IMG/VR virus record: IMGVR_UViG_3300031841_004254
Location: 1-39,059 of that record
DNA: 39,059 bases
Direction: 5' to 3' (one strand)
DNA from: a virus
Below the pieces are notes generated by a model, which was given only the letters and a program-made list of their open reading frames with translations, did no database searches and was not told the origin of the DNA. The position numbers and the translations under genes were made by a program. Position 1 is the stretch's first letter. Each line of letters starts with the position of its first letter. Positions 1 to 39,059 of the stretch are shown here, in pieces.

Positions 1-38
1 TGTTTCTGCTCTTCTTTGTCGTCAATATCAAGTTCCAC
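1..38 (-). CDS. 5' end of a small gene running off the window start (partial)
   Basis: Downstream of the portal gene an AAGGAG Shine-Dalgarno (positions 45-50) precedes two GTG codons, at 40-38 and 38-36. From 38 the reading is VELDIDDKEEQK and stays open to the window edge. If the window is circular, the frame from GTG 40 continues into the Cys-rich partial ORF at the far right end (38971-39057), giving about 42 aa. The frame from GTG 38 has better SD spacing and looks more protein-like, but would stop a few codons past the junction. One inserted or missing base at the contig ends would reconcile the two. The existence of a start here is fairly convincing; the frame is not. Confidence 0.4.
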   Translation of the reverse strand, partial: MELDIDDKEEQK

Positions 39-48
39 ACCAATCTCC

Positions 49-80
49 TTATAACCAATCGCTCAAATTGAGCGTTAAAG
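49..80 (+). repeat. attC-core-like remnant between portal and next gene
   Basis: TTATAAC at 49-55 matches the left core seen at the attC-like sites elsewhere in the window, and GTTAAAG at 74-80 fits the right-core consensus GTTRRRY. Between them is the palindrome CGCTCAAATTGAGCG. At 32 bp it is much shorter than a functional attC (usually 57 bp or more), so it may be a degenerate site or coincidence. Confidence 0.3.
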
Positions 81-105
81 TTTCGCGCCTACTTCATCTA
101 CCTTC

Positions 106-148
106 AGCGCCAATACTAACACTTCTACCCGCCCACACTCGTCATGCT
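106..148. repeat. 43-bp direct repeat, copy 1 (3' end of portal gene)
   Basis: This 43-bp stretch covers the last seven portal codons (SMTSVGG), its TAG stop and about 20 bp beyond. It recurs at 38434-38476 with only two mismatches and in the same orientation. If the window ends join, the two copies flank a block of roughly 0.8 kb holding two small cassette-like ORFs. Confidence 0.85.
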
Positions 149-1507
149 TTCCCCTTTTGGACTGTTACCTGGGGTGATGCTTATTTTTGGCGGTTTGGTG
201 TCTTTATCGTCTTCATCGTCTATGGTTGGGTAGGGGTCGTCGCTGTTTGCTTGGTCTTTACGGGCGGCGAGTACGGCGCTGGCATCTAGCCCGGCAGATT
301 GCCATACGAGTTTTGGTGGTACGCCTAGCGCTTGGTGTTTTAGGGCTAGGTCTGCTCGTTGGTTTGGCGTATCCGTTCTGCGCTCTGCAAATTTTATGGT
401 GAAATCGGCATCATCTGGGTTGATGCCTTGCAGGAGTAAATCTAGCCTAAAGCCGTGTTCGTAGGCTTCGGCTTGGGTGTCTTGCAGGGCGTCTATTTCT
501 TCGTAGTAGTCTTTTTTTAGGTCTTCTAGTATGTCACGATTTAGGTCGCCTACGTAGCCGAACAAGCCTTTTGGTGCGGGACTGCCTGCGAAAAAGGTGT
601 CTAGCAGGTAGCTAACATCGGCTATTTGGTCTAGGTTGGCATCGCCCTGTATGGGGGTTACGCCGCCTTTTTTGTTGGCAAAGTAGTTGGTGGTAATGTC
701 TTGCTGATCATTTTCTACGCTCTCTTTGTAGGCTTTCAGCTCGTCGGCGGTTGCGCCTTCTAGCACGTGGGATGTTCTTAGTGGGGCACGTTGTCGCCTG
801 CGAATAACGAGGTCTTCTTCTGTCATGCGGAGCTGTTGCCAGGTGCTGCGGGTGGCGTCTAAGTATGGGCGGCCTAGTGATCCTTCATCGTCGTAGTTAT
901 CTGGCGTTAGGCGCACTAGGCTTAGCTGCCACTTGGCGAAGCTGGCTATTTCTTTACCGGCGGTGATGTCTATTTGCGAGTAGGCTTTGCTTACGTCGCT
1001 AAAGGTGCCGTTTGGCCCTACGTTTGGGCGAATGGTTTCGCTGGGCATACGAATAGCTTTTACCACGGTGTTTTGCTGGTTGAGTACCCATTGCAGGGGT
1101 AAATTGCCTTCCATCACTAAGCCACGTGCATCGGATTCTAGTTTTTGAATTTTGTTGAGGTTTAGCCGTTTGATGAATTGTTTGAAGGCGTTAATAACGC
1201 GCTCGTCTTCTGCTGGCATTTCTAGCATGAGCCCACCTTTTACGGCAGCACGCGCCATGCGGGTATGTATTTTTTTAACGCGACCATCGACGGTGTCCAT
1301 GTTGCGAACATCGAGGATTCGTTGGTGTATTTGTGGGTCTACCCACATTTGACGGTAGAGGTGCCGTATTTGGTTTTCTGGCGTGGTGCGATTGCCTTGT
1401 TCGCTGGTGGCTTTGTCTTGTTTGCCGGTTAGGTCGTTGCTGGCTTGCTGGGTGCTGGCTTGTTTTGTTGGCGCTGGTTTTTTGCGCATGAATTTTGGTA
1501 AAGGCAT
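125..1507 (-). CDS. phage portal protein
   Basis: Predicted portal (460 aa), the dodecameric ring at the capsid vertex through which DNA is packaged. It directly follows the terminase large subunit, with ATG at 1507 overlapping the terminase TAA (TAATG), the usual TerL-portal coupling. An in-frame ORF continues upstream to 1597, but that part lies inside the terminase coding sequence, so 1507 is the chosen start. The N-terminus is a short basic tail (MPLPKFMRKKPAP). The middle carries portal-like stretches such as PLQWVLN and RRRQRAPLRTSHVLEGA, and the C-terminus is acidic and disordered-looking (DDEDDKDTKPP). The next gene in a Mu-like order, gpF, lies at the other end of the window. The call rests mainly on position, size and general resemblance; the exact portal subfamily is not recognised. 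Confidence 0.75.
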   Translation of the reverse strand: MPLPKFMRKKPAPTKQASTQQASNDLTGKQDKATSEQGNRTTPENQIRHLYRQMWVDPQIHQRILDVRNMDTVDGRVKKIHTRMARAAVKGGLMLEMPAEDERVINAFKQFIKRLNLNKIQKLESDARGLVMEGNLPLQWVLNQQNTVVKAIRMPSETIRPNVGPNGTFSDVSKAYSQIDITAGKEIASFAKWQLSLVRLTPDNYDDEGSLGRPYLDATRSTWQQLRMTEEDLVIRRRQRAPLRTSHVLEGATADELKAYKESVENDQQDITTNYFANKKGGVTPIQGDANLDQIADVSYLLDTFFAGSPAPKGLFGYVGDLNRDILEDLKKDYYEEIDALQDTQAEAYEHGFRLDLLLQGINPDDADFTIKFAERRTDTPNQRADLALKHQALGVPPKLVWQSAGLDASAVLAARKDQANSDDPYPTIDDEDDKDTKPPKISITPGNSPKGESMTSVGG

Positions 1508-4806: not shown

Positions 4807-5820
4807 TCACTTGTTCAGTTCCTTCAGCAATTGAGTCACAGGCGTTGTTATTTTTGACAACGGATTACCCTTAGCGCTCTCTCGTCTAAGCTTTCTCATC
4901 GCCGCATGGTTATAAACCTTTGCTGTGTTCGCGTCTGCATGGCCCATTAAGTCCATGATGGTATGCAAATCAACACTCTCCTCTGCCAACTCAGTGCCAT
5001 AAAGGTGACGAAGAGCATGAGCATGAACAACGTTGTGATCAATGCCCGCTTGCTTGCCATACTTCTTCAGCATCGAGTCAATAGCATTATTCGAAATCCG
5101 GCGTCTCTCACCGTAATACAAATGCGGCGCAATATTCCTATTCAGCGTAGAAACAAACAACACCTTATCGCCATCATCCAAATCTCGAATAATGCTTTGC
5201 AGTTCTGGATGTCCCAAATAAGCCCTAACCATCAACCGCACTTCATCAGGTGCTGGCACCATCCTAACCTTCTTGCCTTTCTCCTCAACACGAATGATTA
5301 AAATTTCATGCCGGTGTTCATCTTGAGTAAAAATCAAACTCGACTCATTCAAATTCTTAACACCCGACATTCGAAACCCACAGCCAATAAAAATTGAAAT
5401 AATCGCCGCATCTCGCACGCCCAAAAAAGTTGTTAAATCAGGCTGCGCCAACAACTTCTCCGCATCACTCAACTGCATAATGGATGGAAAATGTTGTGGC
5501 AACTTAGGCGTTAACACATGCAACGACGGGTTATCCATACGCACATTCGTTCGCTGTAAAAACTTAAAAAAGCCCTTAATTGCAGAAATCACCGGCTTTC
5601 GGCCAGCAGACTTCAACCCACGTTTCATCAAATGCATCCCAGTAAATTCATCCAACCCCTCTTGAGTGGCCGTTAAATGATCCATCCCCTTATCTGCCAA
5701 AAACTCCCGCAACCTCAGCAAATAATGGCGATACTTAATCACCGTCTCTTCAGAGCGGCCCATATTCGCCTCTAAAAAAACCATCCAATCCTCAATCGCC
5801 AACTCAAACTGGTCCATCAT
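4807..5820 (-). CDS. XerC/D-like tyrosine recombinase
   Basis: A full-length tyrosine recombinase of about 337 aa. The N-terminal SAM-like DNA-binding domain (residues about 1-100) contains EETVIKYRHYLLRLREFL. The catalytic domain carries the first Arg in GCGFRMSGVKNL, the HxxR box in HALRHLYGTELAEE, the second His in DLMGHADANTAKVY and the Tyr nucleophile in KVYNHA. All catalytic residues appear intact. It overlaps the replication P gene (stop TGA shared with ATG 5820; GTG 5823 is also possible). It is not next to the probable attP at 16.1-16.3 kb, so it may resolve multimers or act on other sites, such as the attC-like elements. The insertion typical of integron integrases is not visible. 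Confidence 0.85.
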   Translation of the reverse strand: MMDQFELAIEDWMVFLEANMGRSEETVIKYRHYLLRLREFLADKGMDHLTATQEGLDEFTGMHLMKRGLKSAGRKPVISAIKGFFKFLQRTNVRMDNPSLHVLTPKLPQHFPSIMQLSDAEKLLAQPDLTTFLGVRDAAIISIFIGCGFRMSGVKNLNESSLIFTQDEHRHEILIIRVEEKGKKVRMVPAPDEVRLMVRAYLGHPELQSIIRDLDDGDKVLFVSTLNRNIAPHLYYGERRRISNNAIDSMLKKYGKQAGIDHNVVHAHALRHLYGTELAEESVDLHTIMDLMGHADANTAKVYNHAAMRKLRRESAKGNPLSKITTPVTQLLKELNK

Positions 5821-6467
5821 CACAATACCTTCCGCATATTCTTCAAAAACGAAACCACCTCATCAGGCCGAACAGGCTTACCAGCCTCACCAAACACCGG
5901 CTTAGGTGGCGGTTTAGGTAACCCAATCACCAACTTCTCACCGCGCATCACTTGTAAACAAAAAACCTCGTAATTTTTCTTAAACCTTGGAAACATCACA
6001 CCCTCAGGCGTTCGTCTCAACTCAAACCGGCCAGTCGCATTAGCCGCCAAATGCACCGCGTCATGCGACCAAACATGCCCCTGCCCAGCATTACACGCCT
6101 CTTTGTACGCATCCCTCGCATCAGGCAAACCAACATCCTCAGCCGAAGGCCGGCACCAACTCACAAACTCACCACTACTAGGAAAAAAAGGAGTCGACGT
6201 ACGCCTAGCCATACTTTTGCCCTTAGAAATCATAAATCTGCTCGTAATCCCGTTCTCAATAAACGCCTTTGTCCATTCACGTTTAGCAACATTCAGCGCC
6301 TTATCATCTGGGAAAGACTGTCGCCATGCCGGCTTACACGCCTTCAAATGATCAAACAAATCATTAACCAGCTCAGCCGCCTCATCCGACACAACACCCG
6401 GTATTTTCGGCTTAACCTTCACCGTAGAAAGCCCTTGTTTAGGTCTAAAATCACTTGCATTTCTCAT
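5820..6467 (-). CDS. lambda P-like replication protein (helicase loader)
   Basis: A 215-aa protein resembling the phage lambda P family, which recruits host DnaB helicase to the phage origin. Family-like stretches are KREWTKAFIENGI near residue 70, PFFPSSGEFVSWCRP near 100, GLPDARDAYKEAC near 120, WSHDAVHLAANATG near 145, and a C-terminal FPRFKKNYEVFCLQVMRGE. Start ATG 6467 has a GGAG SD; the frame is open nine codons further upstream into the previous gene's end. It follows the DUF1376/O-like gene directly, the same O-P order as in lambdoid phages, and overlaps the recombinase downstream. Confidence 0.8.
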   Translation of the reverse strand: MRNASDFRPKQGLSTVKVKPKIPGVVSDEAAELVNDLFDHLKACKPAWRQSFPDDKALNVAKREWTKAFIENGITSRFMISKGKSMARRTSTPFFPSSGEFVSWCRPSAEDVGLPDARDAYKEACNAGQGHVWSHDAVHLAANATGRFELRRTPEGVMFPRFKKNYEVFCLQVMRGEKLVIGLPKPPPKPVFGEAGKPVRPDEVVSFLKNMRKVL

Positions 6468-7623: not shown

Positions 7624-8152
7624 TATTCGCTCCTTTATCTGTCATTACATTTAAAGCCGCCCTATCCACCTCAGCGCCGAGCGGCGCATCTAAATACCAG
7701 CCTCTAGACGCCTTAGCATCCAGCGGTTGGTGGTAGCACGTGCCCTCATCTGTTTTCTTCAAAAAACCCCACGGTTTAACGGTGGGGCGGTGAATAAATA
7801 AAGACCACGTTTCAGGCTTCGTTTCCCTAATTCGATGAAAATCAACACCCCTAATCACATTCAAACGCCAAGGTTTTAAGTGCTTAAAAACCGACACCCA
7901 GCCCTTGTCAATGCATAACCGCGTCATACGCTCCTCGCTGTAGCCACCACACAAAATTAAAGACAACGCAAAATGCCACGGGTGATCGTGCACCTCCTCG
8001 TCTCCATCAGGCGACACAAACCGATGCAAATACGCCGTAAACCCCAACCACTTACCCAAATAATAACGCTCCAAATAGCGCTCACCAGGCGTTCTATTAA
8101 TTAACCTAATCGGCAACTTAGCCGAGTATTCAAACAACCTTTCATTAAGCAA
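7616..8152 (-). CDS. cupin-like phage protein of unknown function
   Basis: A 178-aa protein with the layout of a small cupin/beta-barrel phage protein. [27 protein letters not shown] has a His-x-His pair (HDHPWH); SEERMTRLC and a later [20 protein letters not shown] supply further conserved His/Arg, and PWGFLKK follows. Proteins with this HPW...TWSLF...WGF pattern are widespread in phages next to replication genes, but their reaction is unknown. The His cluster suggests a metal site. It overlaps ssb by 8 bp and lies in the compact early operon. Confidence 0.55.
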
Positions 8153-8313: not shown

Positions 8314-8533
8314 CCCCACCCTCTACCGCAGGCGCAACACCCCTCAAACAATGCATCCACGTGCTCACCAAATCAGGCCTAACGCCCAAACGCTCAAGCT
8401 CACGCGCCATGCATTTACCCGTAGAAAGCAACCCCTTTAAGGACTCGGTTCGAATCCTAACTTGGGATTGGGTTTGGTTCCCGTTAGTAGACAGCTCATT
8501 TAAAAAAGCCCCGTGATCACTATTAACACTCAC
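8303..8533 (-). CDS. small hypothetical protein
   Basis: A 76-aa protein that starts at GTG 8533, overlapping the recombinase stop (GTGA), and ends 11 bp inside the small membrane protein gene, so it is translationally coupled on both sides. The middle (VRIRTESLKGLLSTGKCMARELERLGV) looks like one or two amphipathic helices. There is no recognisable domain. Proteins beginning with a short helical segment and a conserved HCL/WMHC region are seen in phage early operons, but no function can be given. Confidence 0.6.
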   Translation of the reverse strand: MSVNSDHGAFLNELSTNGNQTQSQVRIRTESLKGLLSTGKCMARELERLGVRPDLVSTWMHCLRGVAPAVEGGDEG

Positions 8534-9171
8534 GACACCGCCTCCAAAGACCGCTCAATATCCTCCCGATCAGGCAAGGTATACACCGTCGTACTCACCA
8601 CACTGCTATGCCCAAGTACCGCACACACATGGCCCCGTGGGTCATCGGCTTCACTACTGCTCATTAACCGCTTCGCCAACGTATGCCGCCACCAATGCGG
8701 CGATGCTGTCACCTTAAGCCCAGCCACCCCACACCAATGCTGCATACGTTGCTGAAAACTACGCACCGCCAGCGCCTTATGGTGCCTACTTAAAATAAAA
8801 GGCGAATCAGGGTCCATAGGCGCACCCATCTCTTTACGAATTTTCAGCAATCGCTTAAGCGCCACAGTGGCCGTTTTATTCAAAAACACCTTATAGCCAC
8901 GCTCACCCTTCGCAATCTCATCACGCAACACCAAATAACCCGATTGCCTAGCCATCAGCGCATCATCCAGCGTTAACCCAGCCAGCGAACCCACCCGAAT
9001 ACCCGTATGCCTAAGCAACAGCATCCAAGCATGGTCACGCCGCGCCAACACACTGCCAAACGTCTTAATTGTTTTAAACAGCAACCGCTCTTCCTTCTCG
9101 CTTAAATACCGCTCAAACACCTGACGTTGACCGTATTTTTTAACTTGTTTAGTTGTCTTATTTATATTCAT
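8530..9171 (-). CDS. minimal tyrosine recombinase (catalytic domain only)
   Basis: A 213-aa protein that is nearly all catalytic domain: the first Arg in RHTGIRVGSLAGL (near residue 60), a conserved Lys region around KVFLNKT, the HxxR box in HWWRHTLAKRL, the second His in AVLGHSSVVS and Tyr in TTVYTL. The N-terminal core-binding domain of usual phage integrases is missing; only about 20 basic residues (KTTKQVKKYGQRQ) precede. All catalytic positions look intact, so it may be active with a partner or on short sites. Start ATG 9171 has a GGAG SD (GTG 9174 is the alternative). It lies about 220 bp from the attC-like site at 9395-9455 and next to cassette-like ORFs, which makes a role on those sites worth testing. 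Confidence 0.8.
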   Translation of the reverse strand: MNINKTTKQVKKYGQRQVFERYLSEKEERLLFKTIKTFGSVLARRDHAWMLLLRHTGIRVGSLAGLTLDDALMARQSGYLVLRDEIAKGERGYKVFLNKTATVALKRLLKIRKEMGAPMDPDSPFILSRHHKALAVRSFQQRMQHWCGVAGLKVTASPHWWRHTLAKRLMSSSEADDPRGHVCAVLGHSSVVSTTVYTLPDREDIERSLEAVS

Positions 9172-9201
9172 CACTTCTCCTTGTTTCGCTTATTACTGCT
9201 G

Positions 9202-9394: not shown

Positions 9395-9455
9395 ATATAA
9401 CAAGGTTTATCAAGCCGACCTCGTAAACTCGGCTGCTTATTAACGGGCGTTATGC
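9395..9455 (+). repeat. attC-like recombination site (61 bp)
   Basis: Left core ATATAAC at 9395-9401 followed by AAGG; right core GTTATGC at 9449-9455 preceded by GGGC. The arms ATCAAGCCGA and TCGGCTGCTTAT pair imperfectly, with an unpaired C in the left arm at the same place as in the classical aadA attC (TTCAAGCCGA). This fixes the polarity as plus strand. The adjacent ORFs are on the minus strand, and the stop codon of the MazG-like gene (9450-9452) lies in the right core. Confidence 0.7.
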
Positions 9456-21682: not shown

Positions 21683-22761
21683 TACGATTCTATCGTTCCA
21701 GCGTAGTCAATTTGAGTCATCGGCGTTGGGCAAACACCCATATCTTGCACTGTTACGCTACCATCTGTAGTCGTGCCGCCTTCTTGGTCTAACACTGGCT
21801 CACTGCCTGCCGTTGTTCCAGCAACGGTTACTTTATAAATATGGTCATTAGTCGTTACATCGGCAGGTAAGTAATAATCCCCAACTGCATATTCTGTGCT
21901 GTTAAGTCTGCGCTTGCCAGTTTTCGGTAAGCACGTTAGTAGAATTTCGTCAGCATAATCGCTGTAACCAGAAACTAAATTTAAGTCAACTTCGTAAGTC
22001 CCATCGCCAGCTACAACAGCATCCATGATATGTGTGCCGTTAACTAGTTCTGAAGCTCTCACATAAAAATCAGTGGCCGCTAGTGTCTCCGATACTGTGC
22101 CTTGAATGCCAAAGAATGGCGGGGTTTCGTTAAATAATGATGTTTTCTCAGTAGGCGTTAATATTCTGTCATAAACTCTAACCTCATCTACTTTGCCTAA
22201 AATAGATTGTGCGCCGCCAACATAGCCGGATGGCACCGCGCCAATGTATGTATCGCCAGTTGCAAACGTTATGCCCGATGCTGCTGTGGCTGTTCCCTGA
22301 GAAACGTCGTCAATATCATAGGTTATTTCACCCGTTGTTCTGTTGTACGTTAATATTAAATGCCTAAAGCCTGCGGCAGGCTTAGCGGAGGTTATAGCAG
22401 TAGAGCCAACAGAAAACCCTAACCAGTCCGAAGCCCCTCCACTATAGTCAAACAGTCTAAATCTATTTCCGCCTCCTATATCAGGGTCATGGATAATTGG
22501 CGAATCATAAGTATCTGCTCGTATTGTGACGTCAACCCACATTGAAATAGAGAAATCAGTAGCCCATCCGCTAAACAAATTACTAATTGTGACTCGATCA
22601 GATGTCCCCCCATTAAACTCTAAAGCGTTATATATTTTCCCTGTAGCTTGGACAGCTCCCGCTATAACACCGTCTTTACTATTCGCACTTTCATCAACCA
22701 GCGTTGTGCCGCTGATATTGTCCATTGTGTAGTGAGCAACAAAATCTGTAGGGATTGCCAT
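21682..22761 (-). CDS. LamG/concanavalin-like domain tail protein
   Basis: A 359-aa protein. Residues about 1-215 form a LamG-type jelly roll: it starts VAHYTMDNISGTTLVDESAN, has DGVIAGAV and NALEFNGG, and ends in the family signature KVDEVRVYDRILTPTEK. Such domains bind sugars or proteins and in phages help attach to the host surface. The C-terminal 140 residues carry ATDFYVRASELVNGTHIMDA and GDGTYEVDLNLVSGYSD, a small beta domain as in carboxypeptidase-like modules. It lies between the distal tail protein and the hub-like gene; the role as an adhesin is inferred. Confidence 0.7.
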   Translation of the reverse strand: MAIPTDFVAHYTMDNISGTTLVDESANSKDGVIAGAVQATGKIYNALEFNGGTSDRVTISNLFSGWATDFSISMWVDVTIRADTYDSPIIHDPDIGGGNRFRLFDYSGGASDWLGFSVGSTAITSAKPAAGFRHLILTYNRTTGEITYDIDDVSQGTATAASGITFATGDTYIGAVPSGYVGGAQSILGKVDEVRVYDRILTPTEKTSLFNETPPFFGIQGTVSETLAATDFYVRASELVNGTHIMDAVVAGDGTYEVDLNLVSGYSDYADEILLTCLPKTGKRRLNSTEYAVGDYYLPADVTTNDHIYKVTVAGTTAGSEPVLDQEGGTTTDGSVTVQDMGVCPTPMTQIDYAGTIES

Positions 22762-35847: not shown

Positions 35848-36972
35848 TTAGTCGTCTGGCTGCCACTTGTCTGGCATAGCGCCTTTTTGTTCGTAGCGTT
35901 TTTTCAATACATTCCATGGCGTTTTTATTTGGTTCTCTTTTAACAAATCACGCTTTAGCGCCATTCGTTTTTTGCGCGAGCCTAATACGTTTTCTTGAAT
36001 AATAATACTTTGTTTATTTAACCAATCAATTCGCGTTTCTTTGCCAGCCCTATCGTCGTTGCTTATTTGGTCTATAAACACGGTTTCTTCATAACTAAGG
36101 GTATTGGGGTGCGCTGGCCACGGGCTTTTGCCTTTTGGGTAAACACCAGGGCCAAGGCCGTAGCGGTTAACCTTAGCGTGCATATCGCAAATGTCCGGCC
36201 GTGGATGGCTGGGGGATAATAAAAACCGAGTGCCCACCACATCCGGGTGAGAAAAGGCGGTGTTTTGATAAGCTATACCATGCGCTCGGTTTATTTCTGT
36301 TCGCATCAGTCGCATGGCGTTGCTCATGGGTGAACCGGGTCCGTTCATTAAGCCCTGTTTAATATCGTTAATTATTTTATTCGCTTGGGCGGCGTTCATT
36401 TTGCTTAGCACATCGGCTGGAACTGATTCGCCACGGGCTAAAAATTCACGCGCCGCTTGGCTGGCAGAATGGCCTTGTATAACGGCCTGCTCAATCGCTT
36501 CTTGCACTACACGCCTTGCGTGTTTATCGGTTCGCCAAATTCTGTCGCTTAGTTGCAAGCCATCTTCTGCTATAAAGCTACGCGCGGCACGAACCGCATC
36601 TTCAGCCAAATTAGTTAGCGAGGCAGACAGCACGGCAGATTCAGCAACAAACGGCTGAACGCCCACCGTAGCGCCTATATTAAGCCCGTTGGACAATACC
36701 CCATCGCGCAAATCTTCTAATTGAGCTAAACCGCTGTTAGCCTGCGCAATAAGCCGCTGCAATACTTCAAGGCGTACATTGCCATCGGCACCGGCAAAGG
36801 CTTCAATATCACGCGACAAACGATCAACCGTTTCACGATAAATACGCTTTAACTCACGCCGCGCATCCGCATCCACCACCCCCATATCGCGCCGCGCTTT
36901 AGCAGACGCACGACGAATAGCCGCTTGCTTGGCAAGGCGGTTAGGGTCTTCGGCTAGGGCTGTGTTGTTCAT
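35848..36972 (-). CDS. gpF-like minor head/head morphogenesis protein
   Basis: A 374-aa protein of the SPP1 gp7/Mu gpF family. The typical C-terminal module is visible: AMRLMRTEINRAHGIAYQNT (R-T-E-x-x-R/A), then DICDMHAKVNRYGLGPGVYP with conserved D-C-H, and PWPAHPNTLSYE. The N-terminal 170 residues are helical and Arg/Glu-rich (RELKRIYRETVDRLSRDIEA). It helps assemble the procapsid around the portal. In Mu-like phages it follows the portal directly; here the small cassette ORFs lie between them, assuming the window ends join. Confidence 0.85.
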   Translation of the reverse strand: MNNTALAEDPNRLAKQAAIRRASAKARRDMGVVDADARRELKRIYRETVDRLSRDIEAFAGADGNVRLEVLQRLIAQANSGLAQLEDLRDGVLSNGLNIGATVGVQPFVAESAVLSASLTNLAEDAVRAARSFIAEDGLQLSDRIWRTDKHARRVVQEAIEQAVIQGHSASQAAREFLARGESVPADVLSKMNAAQANKIINDIKQGLMNGPGSPMSNAMRLMRTEINRAHGIAYQNTAFSHPDVVGTRFLLSPSHPRPDICDMHAKVNRYGLGPGVYPKGKSPWPAHPNTLSYEETVFIDQISNDDRAGKETRIDWLNKQSIIIQENVLGSRKKRMALKRDLLKENQIKTPWNVLKKRYEQKGAMPDKWQPDD

Positions 36973-37034
36973 AATTTCTTTTTTATAACTATCGCATGAA
37001 CCGGACGCGGGAAAATGCGCCGGTTATGCGGGTG

Positions 37035-37229
37035 TTATGTGTTTTTCCCCGTAATCATCCAGTACAGCATTATGTAAGGCCAGAGCAATAAAAAGGCTAT
37101 TCTCAAATATGGAGGCAGGTTGTCTATTGATTCTTTGATGCCGTCACTCCCAAGCCCATCAACCATGTTAAAAAACGTAATTGCACCTATAGCGTGTAGC
37201 GCAACAATCCATAAAATTAAATACTGCAT
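37035..37229 (-). CDS. small two-helix membrane protein (cassette-type ORF)
   Basis: A 64-aa protein with two hydrophobic stretches (MQYLILWIVALHAIGAITFF and LRIAFLLLWPYIMLYWMI) linked by a polar loop (GLGSDGIKESIDNLPPY). ATG 37229 has a GGAGATT SD; a preceding in-frame ATG is 4 codons upstream. It is the last ORF before the gpF gene and begins 20 bp after an attC-like core. It may be a membrane accessory (superinfection or lysis helper); no family is recognised. Confidence 0.6.
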   Translation of the reverse strand: MQYLILWIVALHAIGAITFFNMVDGLGSDGIKESIDNLPPYLRIAFLLLWPYIMLYWMITGKNT

Positions 37230-37248
37230 AATAATCTCCAAAAATCAC

Positions 37249-37311
37249 ACATAACAAATCTTTCAAAACGACCGCCAAAAGGCGGCGGCCTTTTAACTCT
37301 AATGGTTATGT
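37249..37311 (+). repeat. attC-like recombination site (63 bp)
   Basis: Left core ACATAAC (37249-37255) is followed by AAAT, and right core GTTATGT (37305-37311) closes the site. The inner arms TTTCAAAACGACCGCC and GGCGGCGGCCTTTTAACTC pair imperfectly with an unpaired C in the left arm, the hallmark of attC. The stop codon TAA (37306-37308) of the ORF 37306-37512 lies inside the right core. The polarity is plus; the ORFs are on the minus strand. Confidence 0.75.
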
Positions 37312-37512
37312 GTCATCAAAATCTGATTCATCCAGATTATAACGAGCAATCAACTCAGACTTTGATCCAGTTCGTAACGCATATGCGCCAAATGGCGGGG
37401 ATTCTTGTTCTGCACATAGCTCTATTTCATCCTCATAAGAATAAGCTCTGGTTACAGGCGTTGATTTCGCATTAATCCATACGTAAAATTTCGTATTAAT
37501 TGCTTCACACAT
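37306..37512 (-). CDS. hypothetical protein (cassette-type ORF)
   Basis: A 68-aa protein starting MCEAINTKFYVWINAKSTPV; it is mixed beta/acidic and ends in a polyacidic SDFDDT. The ATG lies within the attC-like left core (GTTATGTG) with GGAG as SD, and the stop lies in the next attC-like site, so the ORF exactly fills one cassette. No family recognised. Confidence 0.6.
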   Translation of the reverse strand: MCEAINTKFYVWINAKSTPVTRAYSYEDEIELCAEQESPPFGAYALRTGSKSELIARYNLDESDFDDT

Positions 37513-37610
37513 AACAAATATCTCCAGTTGACAAATAACCGCATCGGCTTTTGTCGTTAAATTTAAAGTTTGCAGTAGCGGTTATTTGCTACTGAGAATT
37601 GGCGTTATAT
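37509..37610 (+). repeat. attC-like recombination site (102 bp)
   Basis: Left core ACATAAC (37509-37515), right core GTTATAT (37604-37610) preceded by GGC. CAAATAACCGC and GCGGTTATTTG form a perfect 11-bp inverted repeat, extended outwards by TCTCCAGTTGA/CTACTGAGA with unpaired bases in the left arm. It is the longest and most convincing hairpin of the set. It includes the start codon of ORF 37512 and the stop of ORF 37605. Confidence 0.75.
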
Positions 37611-37775
37611 TTCTATCCACACTCTAGATGGGTGCGGTAGGTCAGAATGCGAAACTTTTAGTATTTTCTTAGCTCCACTCGACGCGGTTTCCTCCAAAGA
37701 TATTAAAACTGGTGCGTCGTCGTCGCATTCATCTAATATTTCCTGTAACGCCTCTATCAATTTTCTTAGTTTCAT
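37605..37775 (-). CDS. small acidic protein (cassette-type ORF)
   Basis: A 56-aa protein MKLRKLIEALQEILDECDDD..., typical of small phage proteins beginning KLxELIxxLQ(E/K)xxxxxDDxxV. The end is basic to beta-like (KILKVSHSDLPHPSRVWIEI). ATG 37775 with a GAGGAT SD; a longer frame to 37814 begins in the attC-like core. Its stop lies in the right core of the site at 37509-37610. Function unknown. Confidence 0.65.
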   Translation of the reverse strand: MKLRKLIEALQEILDECDDDAPVLISLEETASSGAKKILKVSHSDLPHPSRVWIEI

Positions 37776-37800
37776 TTTCTTATCCTCGGTAAAATTCAAA

Positions 37801-37862
37801 ATATAACAAGTCATTCAAAAAGAGCCGAAACAGCACCGGCCTGTTTAACTAAAGCGTTACAT
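37801..37862 (+). repeat. attC-like recombination site (62 bp)
   Basis: Left core ATATAAC (37801-37807) is followed by AAG, right core GTTACAT (37856-37862) by TG. The arms TTCAAAAAGAGCCG and CGGCCTGTTTAACT pair with an unpaired C in the left arm. The right arm GGCCTGTTTAACTAAAGCG is identical to that at 38562-38580. It lies between ORFs 37605 and 37864. Confidence 0.75.
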
Positions 37863-37863
37863 G

Positions 37864-38079
37864 TCAGTTACCTTCTAAATACAGGTATTCTTTTTCCTTC
37901 TGCTTATTTTCTTCACTCATTGTTGGGTGCGATCTCATCACCCATCCTTCGTTTTCAACTCCCTTAATAACTGACCAATCATCTAATTTAATTATCTCAT
38001 AATCGCTATGCCTACGGTTTACAATTTCCATGTCATCTGGATACTGCTCAAGCATCTTTTTTAAATCTCCTACATTCAT
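37864..38079 (-). CDS. small phage protein (MxVGDLxxxLxxYPDDMEI type)
   Basis: A 71-aa protein with the start MNVGDLKKMLEQYPDDMEIV, a widespread small phage/prophage pattern (VxxLxxxLxxxPDDxEV). The rest (DDWSVIKGVENEGWVMRSHP and a charged end) is unremarkable. ATG 38079 overlaps a TGA of the short upstream ORF (TTATGAATG). The stop TGA lies next to an attC-like core. Function unknown; common in cassette-like regions. Confidence 0.65.
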   Translation of the reverse strand: MNVGDLKKMLEQYPDDMEIVNRRHSDYEIIKLDDWSVIKGVENEGWVMRSHPTMSEENKQKEKEYLYLEGN

Positions 38080-38229
38080 AAGTCACCCGCCTGTTTAACT
38101 AAAAGTATTCTATTTGAAAATGCTTTATTAATATCAACCATTGTTTTACCTATAACTGATTGGTTATTGGATTACGCTGTTAAGTCTCGTGGCTTATTCA
38201 GCATTTTTTTAACGCTAACTCTTTAGTTT
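38080..38229. other. short intergenic segment with degenerate attC arm and a 21-codon ORF
   Basis: GCCTGTTTAACTAAAAG (38089-38105) is nearly the right arm seen in the attC-like sites at 37801 and 38562, but no right core follows. On the minus strand, ATG 38142 starts a 21-codon frame (MVDINKAFSNRILLVKQAGD) ending at the next gene's ATG; its SD is weak. It may be a leader peptide or remnant of a cassette junction. Nothing else is visible. Confidence 0.35.
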
Positions 38230-38419
38230 TTAGCTCTGCTCCCAATCACACGGCTTTCCCGCTATATCAAAACAAACTTCAACAAAATTCACTGATTCAT
38301 GCTGATCAATAACGCCGCACAAATCATTATTCATATAAAGCGCCAACTCTTTTATTAACTGAAGGGTTTCATCATTTAGTTGTTTTTTTAAAAGCCTCTT
38401 CTTTGTTTTTATCTGCCAT
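38230..38419 (-). pseudogene. frameshifted small ORF
   Basis: ATG 38419 with a GGAGAT SD begins MADKNKEEAFKK, but after a run of seven A residues the frame stops at TGA. Removing one A restores an open frame to the TAA at 38230, giving about 62 aa with the ending LALYMNNDLCGVIDQHES and then NFVEVCFDIAGKPCDWEQS. It is either a homopolymer sequencing error, a real mutation or a slippage site. It starts right after the second copy of the portal 3' end. Confidence 0.55.
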
Positions 38420-38433
38420 TTTTATCTCCGTTT

Positions 38434-38476
38434 AGCGCCAATACTAACACTTCTACCCGCCTACACTCGTCATACT
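38434..38476. repeat. 43-bp direct repeat, copy 2 (portal gene 3' end duplicated)
   Basis: Same sequence as 106-148 with two mismatches, including the SMTSVGG-stop codons of the portal gene. Here it lies just before the frameshifted ORF. It suggests that this ORF once followed the portal directly, before the cassettes were inserted in between. Confidence 0.85.
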
Positions 38477-38554
38477 CTCTTTAATCAAGCTGGCTGACCC
38501 CTTGATAACCCCTTGATAAACTCTCTTTAATCAAGCTGGCTGACCCCTTGATAA
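38475..38554. repeat. 46-bp tandem direct repeat (two copies, second partial)
   Basis: CTCTCTTTAATCAAGCTGGC and the following TGACCCCTTGATAA occur at 38475-38508 and again at 38521-38554, 46 bp apart, with CCCCTTGATAA doubled in between. It is non-coding and lies between the portal repeat and the attC half-site. Confidence 0.85.
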
Positions 38555-38561
38555 AAGCACA

Positions 38562-38586
38562 GGCCTGTTTAACTAAAGCGTTATGT
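38562..38586 (+). repeat. attC half-site (right arm and core)
   Basis: GGCCTGTTTAACTAAAGCG and core GTTATGT match the right half of the site at 37801-37862. No paired left half is seen; TACTAAC at 38442 could be the left core only if the site included the tandem repeats. It lies 3 bp from the stop of the ORF 38589-38891. Confidence 0.55.
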
Positions 38587-38588
38587 GG

Positions 38589-38891
38589 CTAAAGGTTCCG
38601 CCATCCTGCGTCCATAACCCTATTAACAAATTCATCAGTTATCTTGCCGCTTATCGCTTCATGTACTTTTGATTTTAGTAGGTCAGCGTGTTCCGACATT
38701 AAGCATTCCAGTATCAGGTTGTTTACGTGTTTTTTTATTACCGCATCGATTGGATTCTGGTAGCTCTTTCCAAGCTCATCGACATTTTTTTGAACCTGTG
38801 CCTTTACCTGCTCACCAATAGCACTATTCAAAACTGCTTCGGCCACCATTTTATTTATCTGTTCAGGATCAATGTTTATATTCAAGTCCAT
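38589..38891 (-). CDS. small helical phage protein (cassette-type ORF)
   Basis: A 100-aa protein: MDLNINIDPEQINKMVAEAV, then IGEQVKAQVQKNVDELGKSY, NPIDAVIKKHVNNLILECLM and KITDEFVNRVMDAGWRN. The pattern with an acidic start and the central YxNPID motif occurs in small phage proteins of unknown function. ATG 38891 has a GGAGATT SD; the frame upstream crosses the attC-like site. Its stop is 3 bp from the attC half-site. Confidence 0.65.
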   Translation of the reverse strand: MDLNINIDPEQINKMVAEAVLNSAIGEQVKAQVQKNVDELGKSYQNPIDAVIKKHVNNLILECLMSEHADLLKSKVHEAISGKITDEFVNRVMDAGWRNL

Positions 38892-38913
38892 AATAATCTC
38901 CAGGTTTTGCGCC

Positions 38914-38976
38914 ACATAACAAGGCACTTAAATTGGAGCCGCAAACTGCGGCCCATTTAGCTAAATTGCGTTATAA
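38914..38976 (+). repeat. attC-like recombination site (63 bp)
   Basis: Left core ACATAAC (38914-38920) followed by AAGG, and right core GTTATAA (38970-38976). The left arm AAATTGGAGCCGC pairs with GCGGCCCATTT with two unpaired bases (T and A) in the left arm. The site contains the stop codon of the partial ORF at the window end. Confidence 0.75.
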
Positions 38977-39057
38977 GGAATGGTCGCAGTAATCATTTAG
39001 CGCTTCAACCCAGTTGCATTTTTCACATCTAGTCTTACCGTTCGGGCACTTGCAAAC
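38971..39057 (-). CDS. Cys-rich small protein, partial at window end (cassette-type ORF)
   Basis: 28 codons are visible, with VCKCPNGKTRCEKCNWVEAL and then NDYCDHSL. Four cysteines (CKC...CEKC) and a final Cys/His suggest a zinc-binding fold. The stop TAA lies within the attC-like site 38914-38976. The 5' end lies beyond the window edge, and probably joins the start at positions 38-40 if the sequence is circular. Confidence 0.6.
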   Translation of the reverse strand, partial: VCKCPNGKTRCEKCNWVEALNDYCDHSL

Positions 39058-39059
39058 TC

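Follow-up and report, generated by a model that had tools for sequence, protein, structure and literature searches.

The DNA analysed here (the window, by which we mean the whole 39,059-nt stretch) is an IMG/VR virus record of a temperate phage, in which a cluster of integron attC sites without an integron integrase lies between the portal and head genes, and in which one further attC is found in the early region. The portal and MuF-head genes are at opposite ends of the window and are neighbours in ~150 related phages and prophages (with a gap of <100 bp in more than half of them); the record is therefore circularly permuted, and the array lies between these two genes:

125-1507, minus strand: portal gene, bordering the array upstream (across the record ends), with homologues beside the head gene in the ~150 relatives
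35848-36972, minus strand: MuF-type head morphogenesis gene, bordering the array downstream (PHROG 1657, E = 6e-36)

The small genes between the attCs share the direction of the surrounding phage operon. A megablast search of phage records with half of the window gave no match, and no Rfam family matched the window.

Sites were identified using a covariance model, R1, that was built solely from 19 bacterial attCs to avoid circularity; these came from the class 1 integron on plasmid NC_004998 (L180) and from chromosomal integrons of Cycloclasticus relatives. In the 39-kb window, R1 found six attCs, all on the plus strand, with five in 36983-38976 and one at 9395, and the next-best place scored 10.7 bits, leaving a clear gap below the six:

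36983-37040, plus strand: attC0, abutting the MuF-head gene start (36972); R1 29.6 bits, E = 1e-5; bottom-strand fold z = -4.75
37249-37311, plus strand: attC1; R1 18.8 bits, E = 0.008; fold z = -2.97
37509-37610, plus strand: attC2, a long site of 102 nt; R1 35.2 bits, E = 4e-7
37801-37862, plus strand: attC3; R1 28.2 bits; fold z about -0.6, not better than shuffles
38914-38976, plus strand: attC4; R1 15.4 bits, E = 0.07; 29 by a separate simple scorer; fold z = -3.2
9395-9455, plus strand: lone early-region attC; R1 27.0 bits, E = 6e-5; fold z about -0.7, not better than shuffles

All five elements that a preliminary description of this DNA had called attC-like were thus recovered (15.4-35.2 bits), at scores far above those of shuffled sequence as it had required of them, but its list was incomplete, having missed attC0 (29.6 bits). 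The separate simple scorer placed 5 sites at or above 24, all in 36983-38976 and on one strand, where 0.64 were expected per dinucleotide-shuffled window, and R1 itself was specific, giving only 7 matches with E ≤ 0.5 in 158 related phage loci (1.6 Mb). By R1, attC1 and attC4 are weak when taken alone; attC4 yet has AACAA, GCGTTA, complementary arms and the context of the array. The window sites have the R''..AAC and R' GTT.. cores, inner L''/L' arms, the unpaired base and the shared fold of attCs, although two of the six fold no better than shuffles. The bottom-strand hairpins that had been predicted for them were seen in part: DNA folding was significant for four of the six (z -3.0 to -4.8) and not for the sites at 37801 (attC3) and 9395. 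Searches for the exact attC2 pattern in viral contigs and for the attC DNA in isolated phages found none. Overall, the window sites are genuine members of the integron attC family, and five of them within 2 kb with no intI form a CALIN.

The sites delimit small genes, which were assigned to the minus strand:

37035-37229, minus strand: cassette gene G, small membrane-like protein; codon score 10.8 on this strand
37306-37512, minus strand: cassette gene F; codon score 17.7; ATG within the attC2 R'' box, stop TAA formed by the attC1 R' core
37605-37775, minus strand: cassette gene E; codon score 17.2; stop TAA formed by the attC2 R' core
37864-38079, minus strand: cassette gene D; codon score 24.1
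38589-38891, minus strand: cassette gene B; codon score 24.8; GGAGATTATTATG start as in gene G
38971-39059, minus strand: 3' end of a cassette gene (CxC..CxxC) that runs off the record

If the record is circularly permuted, nucleotides 1-39 (minus strand) may be the 5' end of this last gene. None of the window cassette proteins matched Pfam or PHROGs. An identical 14-bp start region (TGGAGATTATTATG) is present at 37227-37240 and 38889-38902, in two cassette genes with unrelated products.

As a reference for polarity we used aadA1 of a class 1 integron, in which the gene is followed by its attC on the same strand. The window departs from this canonical layout (attC downstream of its gene, both on one strand), as all of its attCs are on the plus strand and all of its cassette genes are on the minus strand, judging by codon score, by ribosome-binding sites and starts beside R'', and by stops that R' supplies in several genes. 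With the polarity reversed, each attC precedes its gene, the ribosome-binding site and ATG come after the R'' side (GGAG and the ATG of gene G do so at attC1), and the R' core (TAAC on the gene strand) is often the stop of the previous gene. The preliminary description was right that integron-type attCs occur in this phage, but its reading of the whole as the structure of integron gene cassettes did not hold, because every gene runs against its attC.

Compared to bacterial arrays, the polarity of phage arrays was opposite: using a per-genome codon model, 49 phage genes ran against their attC and 3 with it, relative to 8 against and 96 with in bacterial arrays (Fisher p = 3e-28). Across the arrays of 21 phage records, seeded with one attC pattern that is blind to gene direction but limits host range, 93 of 96 called genes opposed their attC, and nearly all of them followed the direction of their phage neighbours. 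The reversal was thus seen in the window phage and in about 18-20 other phage records, including a Mu-like prophage; phage markers (terminase, portal, tape measure, tail fibre, primase or polymerase) lay near the arrays in most records. It also applied to the isolated phage H101 (PH101), which has four attCs on the plus strand with the GenBank genes between them on the minus strand. Canonical arrays were found in the isolated phage TJE1 and in two further records (L223 and L027), so that reversal is not universal. Two phages (G130 and G129) carry attCs on both strands, which oppose the local genes each time, and in the 53-kb phage G130 a flip in operon direction is accompanied by a flip of the attC strand. 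Replication strand, considered as the sole cause of the polarity, is made less likely by this behaviour of G130 and G129. In the open-access literature that we searched, neither this consistent reversal nor its tie to operon direction appears to have been reported.

The two polarities also meet within single hosts. In the genome of a Cycloclasticus relative (G009), a Mu-like prophage is reversed, whereas the chromosomal attC cluster belongs to the bacterial set, in which canonical genes are the majority; the prophage (L247 10106-10432; G009 C1 about 1660105-1660431) has two attCs with a reversed gene between them. On contig NVUJ01000009.1, prophage genes have the polarity opposite to that of a bacterial array on the same contig. 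This array (L178-L179, about 74964-85667), which shares the contig with a Cycloclasticus prophage, carries toxin-antitoxin cassettes. Seven reversed cassettes from bacterial arrays included one phage-type methyltransferase, one phage anti-repressor/Rha-like protein and one antitoxin-like protein; the reversed bacterial cassettes at L198 3151-3801 and L195 7228-8304 have as products a DNA methyltransferase of phage type and a protein resembling a phage anti-repressor. Ten canonical bacterial cassettes gave mostly weak or unknown matches. These numbers are small and make the comparison a lead only.

Gene content at the portal/head locus turns over between close relatives. Arrays of 1.7-3.6 kb with differing genes occupy this place in the window and in its two closest relatives, whose cassette genes are unlike those of the window. 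One of these (L021), a prophage in a contig of a Cycloclasticus MAG with 84-87% portal identity, has a 3.6-kb interval with about six sites and genes for a C5 methyltransferase and others; the second (L004; 78% portal identity) has a 1.7-kb interval with two sites and a methyltransferase-like gene. The Cycloclasticus prophage has a homologue of attC0 in the corresponding position (C22 5524-5582), and attC2 is 82% identical to another of its sites (C22 7840-7925; site extent about 7839-7941). BLASTP of cassette genes between phages gave one pair only, and thus the genes turn over faster than the attCs.

BLASTN among the attC-bearing phage records showed that attCs are common to phages without other similarity. 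The 9395 attC is identical at 58 of 58 positions to 22159-22216 of G130 (IMG/VR 3300027852_000046, 52.8 kb), a phage otherwise unrelated to that of the window, and the identity ends just outside R'' and R', beyond which the flanks differ. The same site is 81% identical to one in the Mu-like prophage, and attC3 matches a G130 site at 80% over 80 nt. Several sites are 95-98% identical between G129 and G130, and one is 100% identical between L225 and L234; a methyltransferase-like gene lies directly 3' of an attC in both L004 and the unrelated G130 (74% over 619 nt). The expectation of the preliminary description that phages would differ exactly at the cores was borne out in part: cassette sets differ at the portal/head locus and the flanks of an identical attC change at both cores, but no near-identical pair differed by one cassette gained or lost among the relatives compared.

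The array also contains damaged sites:

38553-38587, plus strand: right half of an attC, left half lost; 94% copy of the attC3 right half
38079-38109, plus strand: remnant of an attC right half, by repeat-family match
49-114, plus strand: decayed attC at the portal gene end, left part kept and R' part lost; 85% over 66 nt to G130 442-507

The G130 counterpart of the decayed site (442-507) is a full attC. In addition, the portal gene end (92-147) is duplicated within the array at 38435-38480 (AGCGCCAATACTAACACTTCTACCCGCC), which is likely a scar of array growth. The half sites (38553 and 38079), the decayed site and the second copy of the portal end record turnover of the array. A 35-bp exact direct repeat with 46-bp spacing (38474-38554) stands in place of the left half of a damaged attC.

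The window encodes two tyrosine recombinases, which the preliminary description had named as candidates for acting on the sites, and both proved distinct from integron integrases:

4807-5823, minus strand: phage integrase (Pfam PF00589), not an integron integrase; 44.7 bits for its best TIGR02249 stretch (cut-off 265)
8530-9174, minus strand: short tyrosine recombinase of 214 aa, catalytic domain only; best TIGR02249 stretch 24 bits against the same cut-off

No TIGR02249 match above the cut-off, and so no intI, was found in the window record, which does not hold a complete integron. The 214-aa recombinase is 87% identical, and the main integrase 66% identical, to those of the Cycloclasticus prophage. 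The gene for the 214-aa protein lies one gene away from the lone 9395-9455 attC, a site with no established counterpart in that prophage. A role for this protein as a dedicated cassette recombinase would not be general, since 19 of 23 attC-bearing phage records, some of which are fragments, lack a PF00589 protein. Of 121 genomes related to the Cycloclasticus MAG, 75 encode an integron integrase, as does the MAG that holds the closest prophage. A fragment of such an integrase lies at the edge of a contig other than NVUJ01000009.1 (L174 18526-19071).

It was previously shown (PMC9892861) that attCs of H101/PH101 recombine with attI1 via IntI1, and that their bottom strand does so better than the top. 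The lack of IntI in the phage, its presence in related bacteria and this activity with IntI1 together point to a host integrase acting in trans, and host IntI probably exchanges these phage-adapted, reversed cassettes. In such a scheme, the chromosomal integron integrase of the host would recombine folded attC bottom strands, and cassettes would be gained and lost without a phage-encoded recombinase. In this orientation the bottom strand that recombines coincides with the coding (non-template) strand of the phage operon; this strand may become accessible during transcription and, where genes are co-directional with the fork, during lagging-strand synthesis. In Vibrio, excision was higher once the bottom strands had been moved to the lagging template (PMC11023631). 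Reversed cassettes would be read by the phage operon and be antisense to Pc in a bacterial integron, an orientation that could keep phage and bacterial cassette pools apart. Against a purely integrase-based account, in the sharpest case of sharing, that of the 9395 attC, the gene on the R'' side does not travel with the site. One IntI move, with the cut at R', should carry gene and attC together, yet the attC is shared alone, so that gene turnover or homologous recombination must also act, and homologous recombination at attC may contribute.

The main rival carries this last point further, taking attCs as short islands of homology (~60 bp) at which phage recombinases or RecA act, that is, as mosaic linkers with no part for an integron integrase. 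Phages are mosaic, most attC-bearing records lack a tyrosine recombinase, and an attC common to phages with different genes on both sides is what any homologous stretch would give. We consider this explanation doubtful, as it accounts neither for the islands being integron attCs that retain both cores and the unpaired base nor for the polarity rule; homologous exchange should also yield chimeric attCs with switches inside the site. Improbable in our view is the proposal that the attCs have been domesticated as mRNA elements, namely hairpins in 5' leaders that serve small-gene expression and have lost their use in recombination: every attC does lie immediately before a ribosome-binding site and a start codon, always in one polarity, but two of the six in the window lack a stable DNA fold, and IntI1 recombines those of H101/PH101, a reversed phage (PMC9892861). 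That ordinary bacterial integron cassettes were picked up by accident is very improbable, although this attC family is also that of the lineage's bacterial integrons, because phage cassettes have the opposite polarity to bacterial ones of the same lineage, even on contig NVUJ01000009.1, the counts contradict it, and attC polarity tracks the phage operon. Chance intergenic hairpins, a reading to which the individually weak sites at 38914 and 37249 might lend themselves if they stood alone, are refuted by the scores, the clustering and the sharing between phages.

The reversed polarity in this and the other phage records suggests that phages maintain an exchangeable type of gene cassette that is theirs alone. 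In its full form our proposal is more tentative: the phage cassette pool would be inverted in polarity relative to that of bacteria, the host integrase would move its cassettes in trans, their reversal would place the recombining strand on the coding strand of the operon and hold the two pools separate, and reversed bacterial cassettes, perhaps some cassettes generally, would be of phage origin. The proposal bears on where integron cassettes originate and why a minority of them run backwards. If a strong polarity rule holds for phages, they would have a definite part in the making and movement of cassettes, and a further class of phage accessory-gene exchange, independent of any phage recombinase, would be recognised. 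Such a rule predicts that attC orientation relative to transcription may set exchange during infection, and polarity would offer a way to tell phage-borne from bacterial arrays in viral contigs.

The preliminary description held that attC arrays in phages are rarely reported, which stands, yet they had already been described in 2023, and the polarity reversal is what appears to be new. Qi et al. 2023 (PMC9892861) report phage-borne CALINs that resemble the window array, being attC clusters without IntI in temperate and virulent phages that carry DNA methyltransferases besides small unknown genes. Their phages include H101/PH101, reversed as well by the present scan; the available text describes the direction of cassettes within the array, not that of the gene relative to its attC. 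Beyond what it covers, we add reversal as a rule in about 18 phage records, an attC shared from core to core, and the exact location of the array in the late operon. The sedentary chromosomal integrons found in Cycloclasticus and further Gammaproteobacteria have the same attC family, with IntI in related genomes, and differ in that IntI is present, cassettes encode toxin-antitoxin systems and genes run with their attC (96:8), whereas the phage lacks IntI and its genes run against theirs. Finally, the array resembles the morons, or accessory gene insertion sites, of tailed phages in placing small accessory genes at a fixed position between structural genes; unlike morons, the genes of the window are delimited by integron recombination sites.
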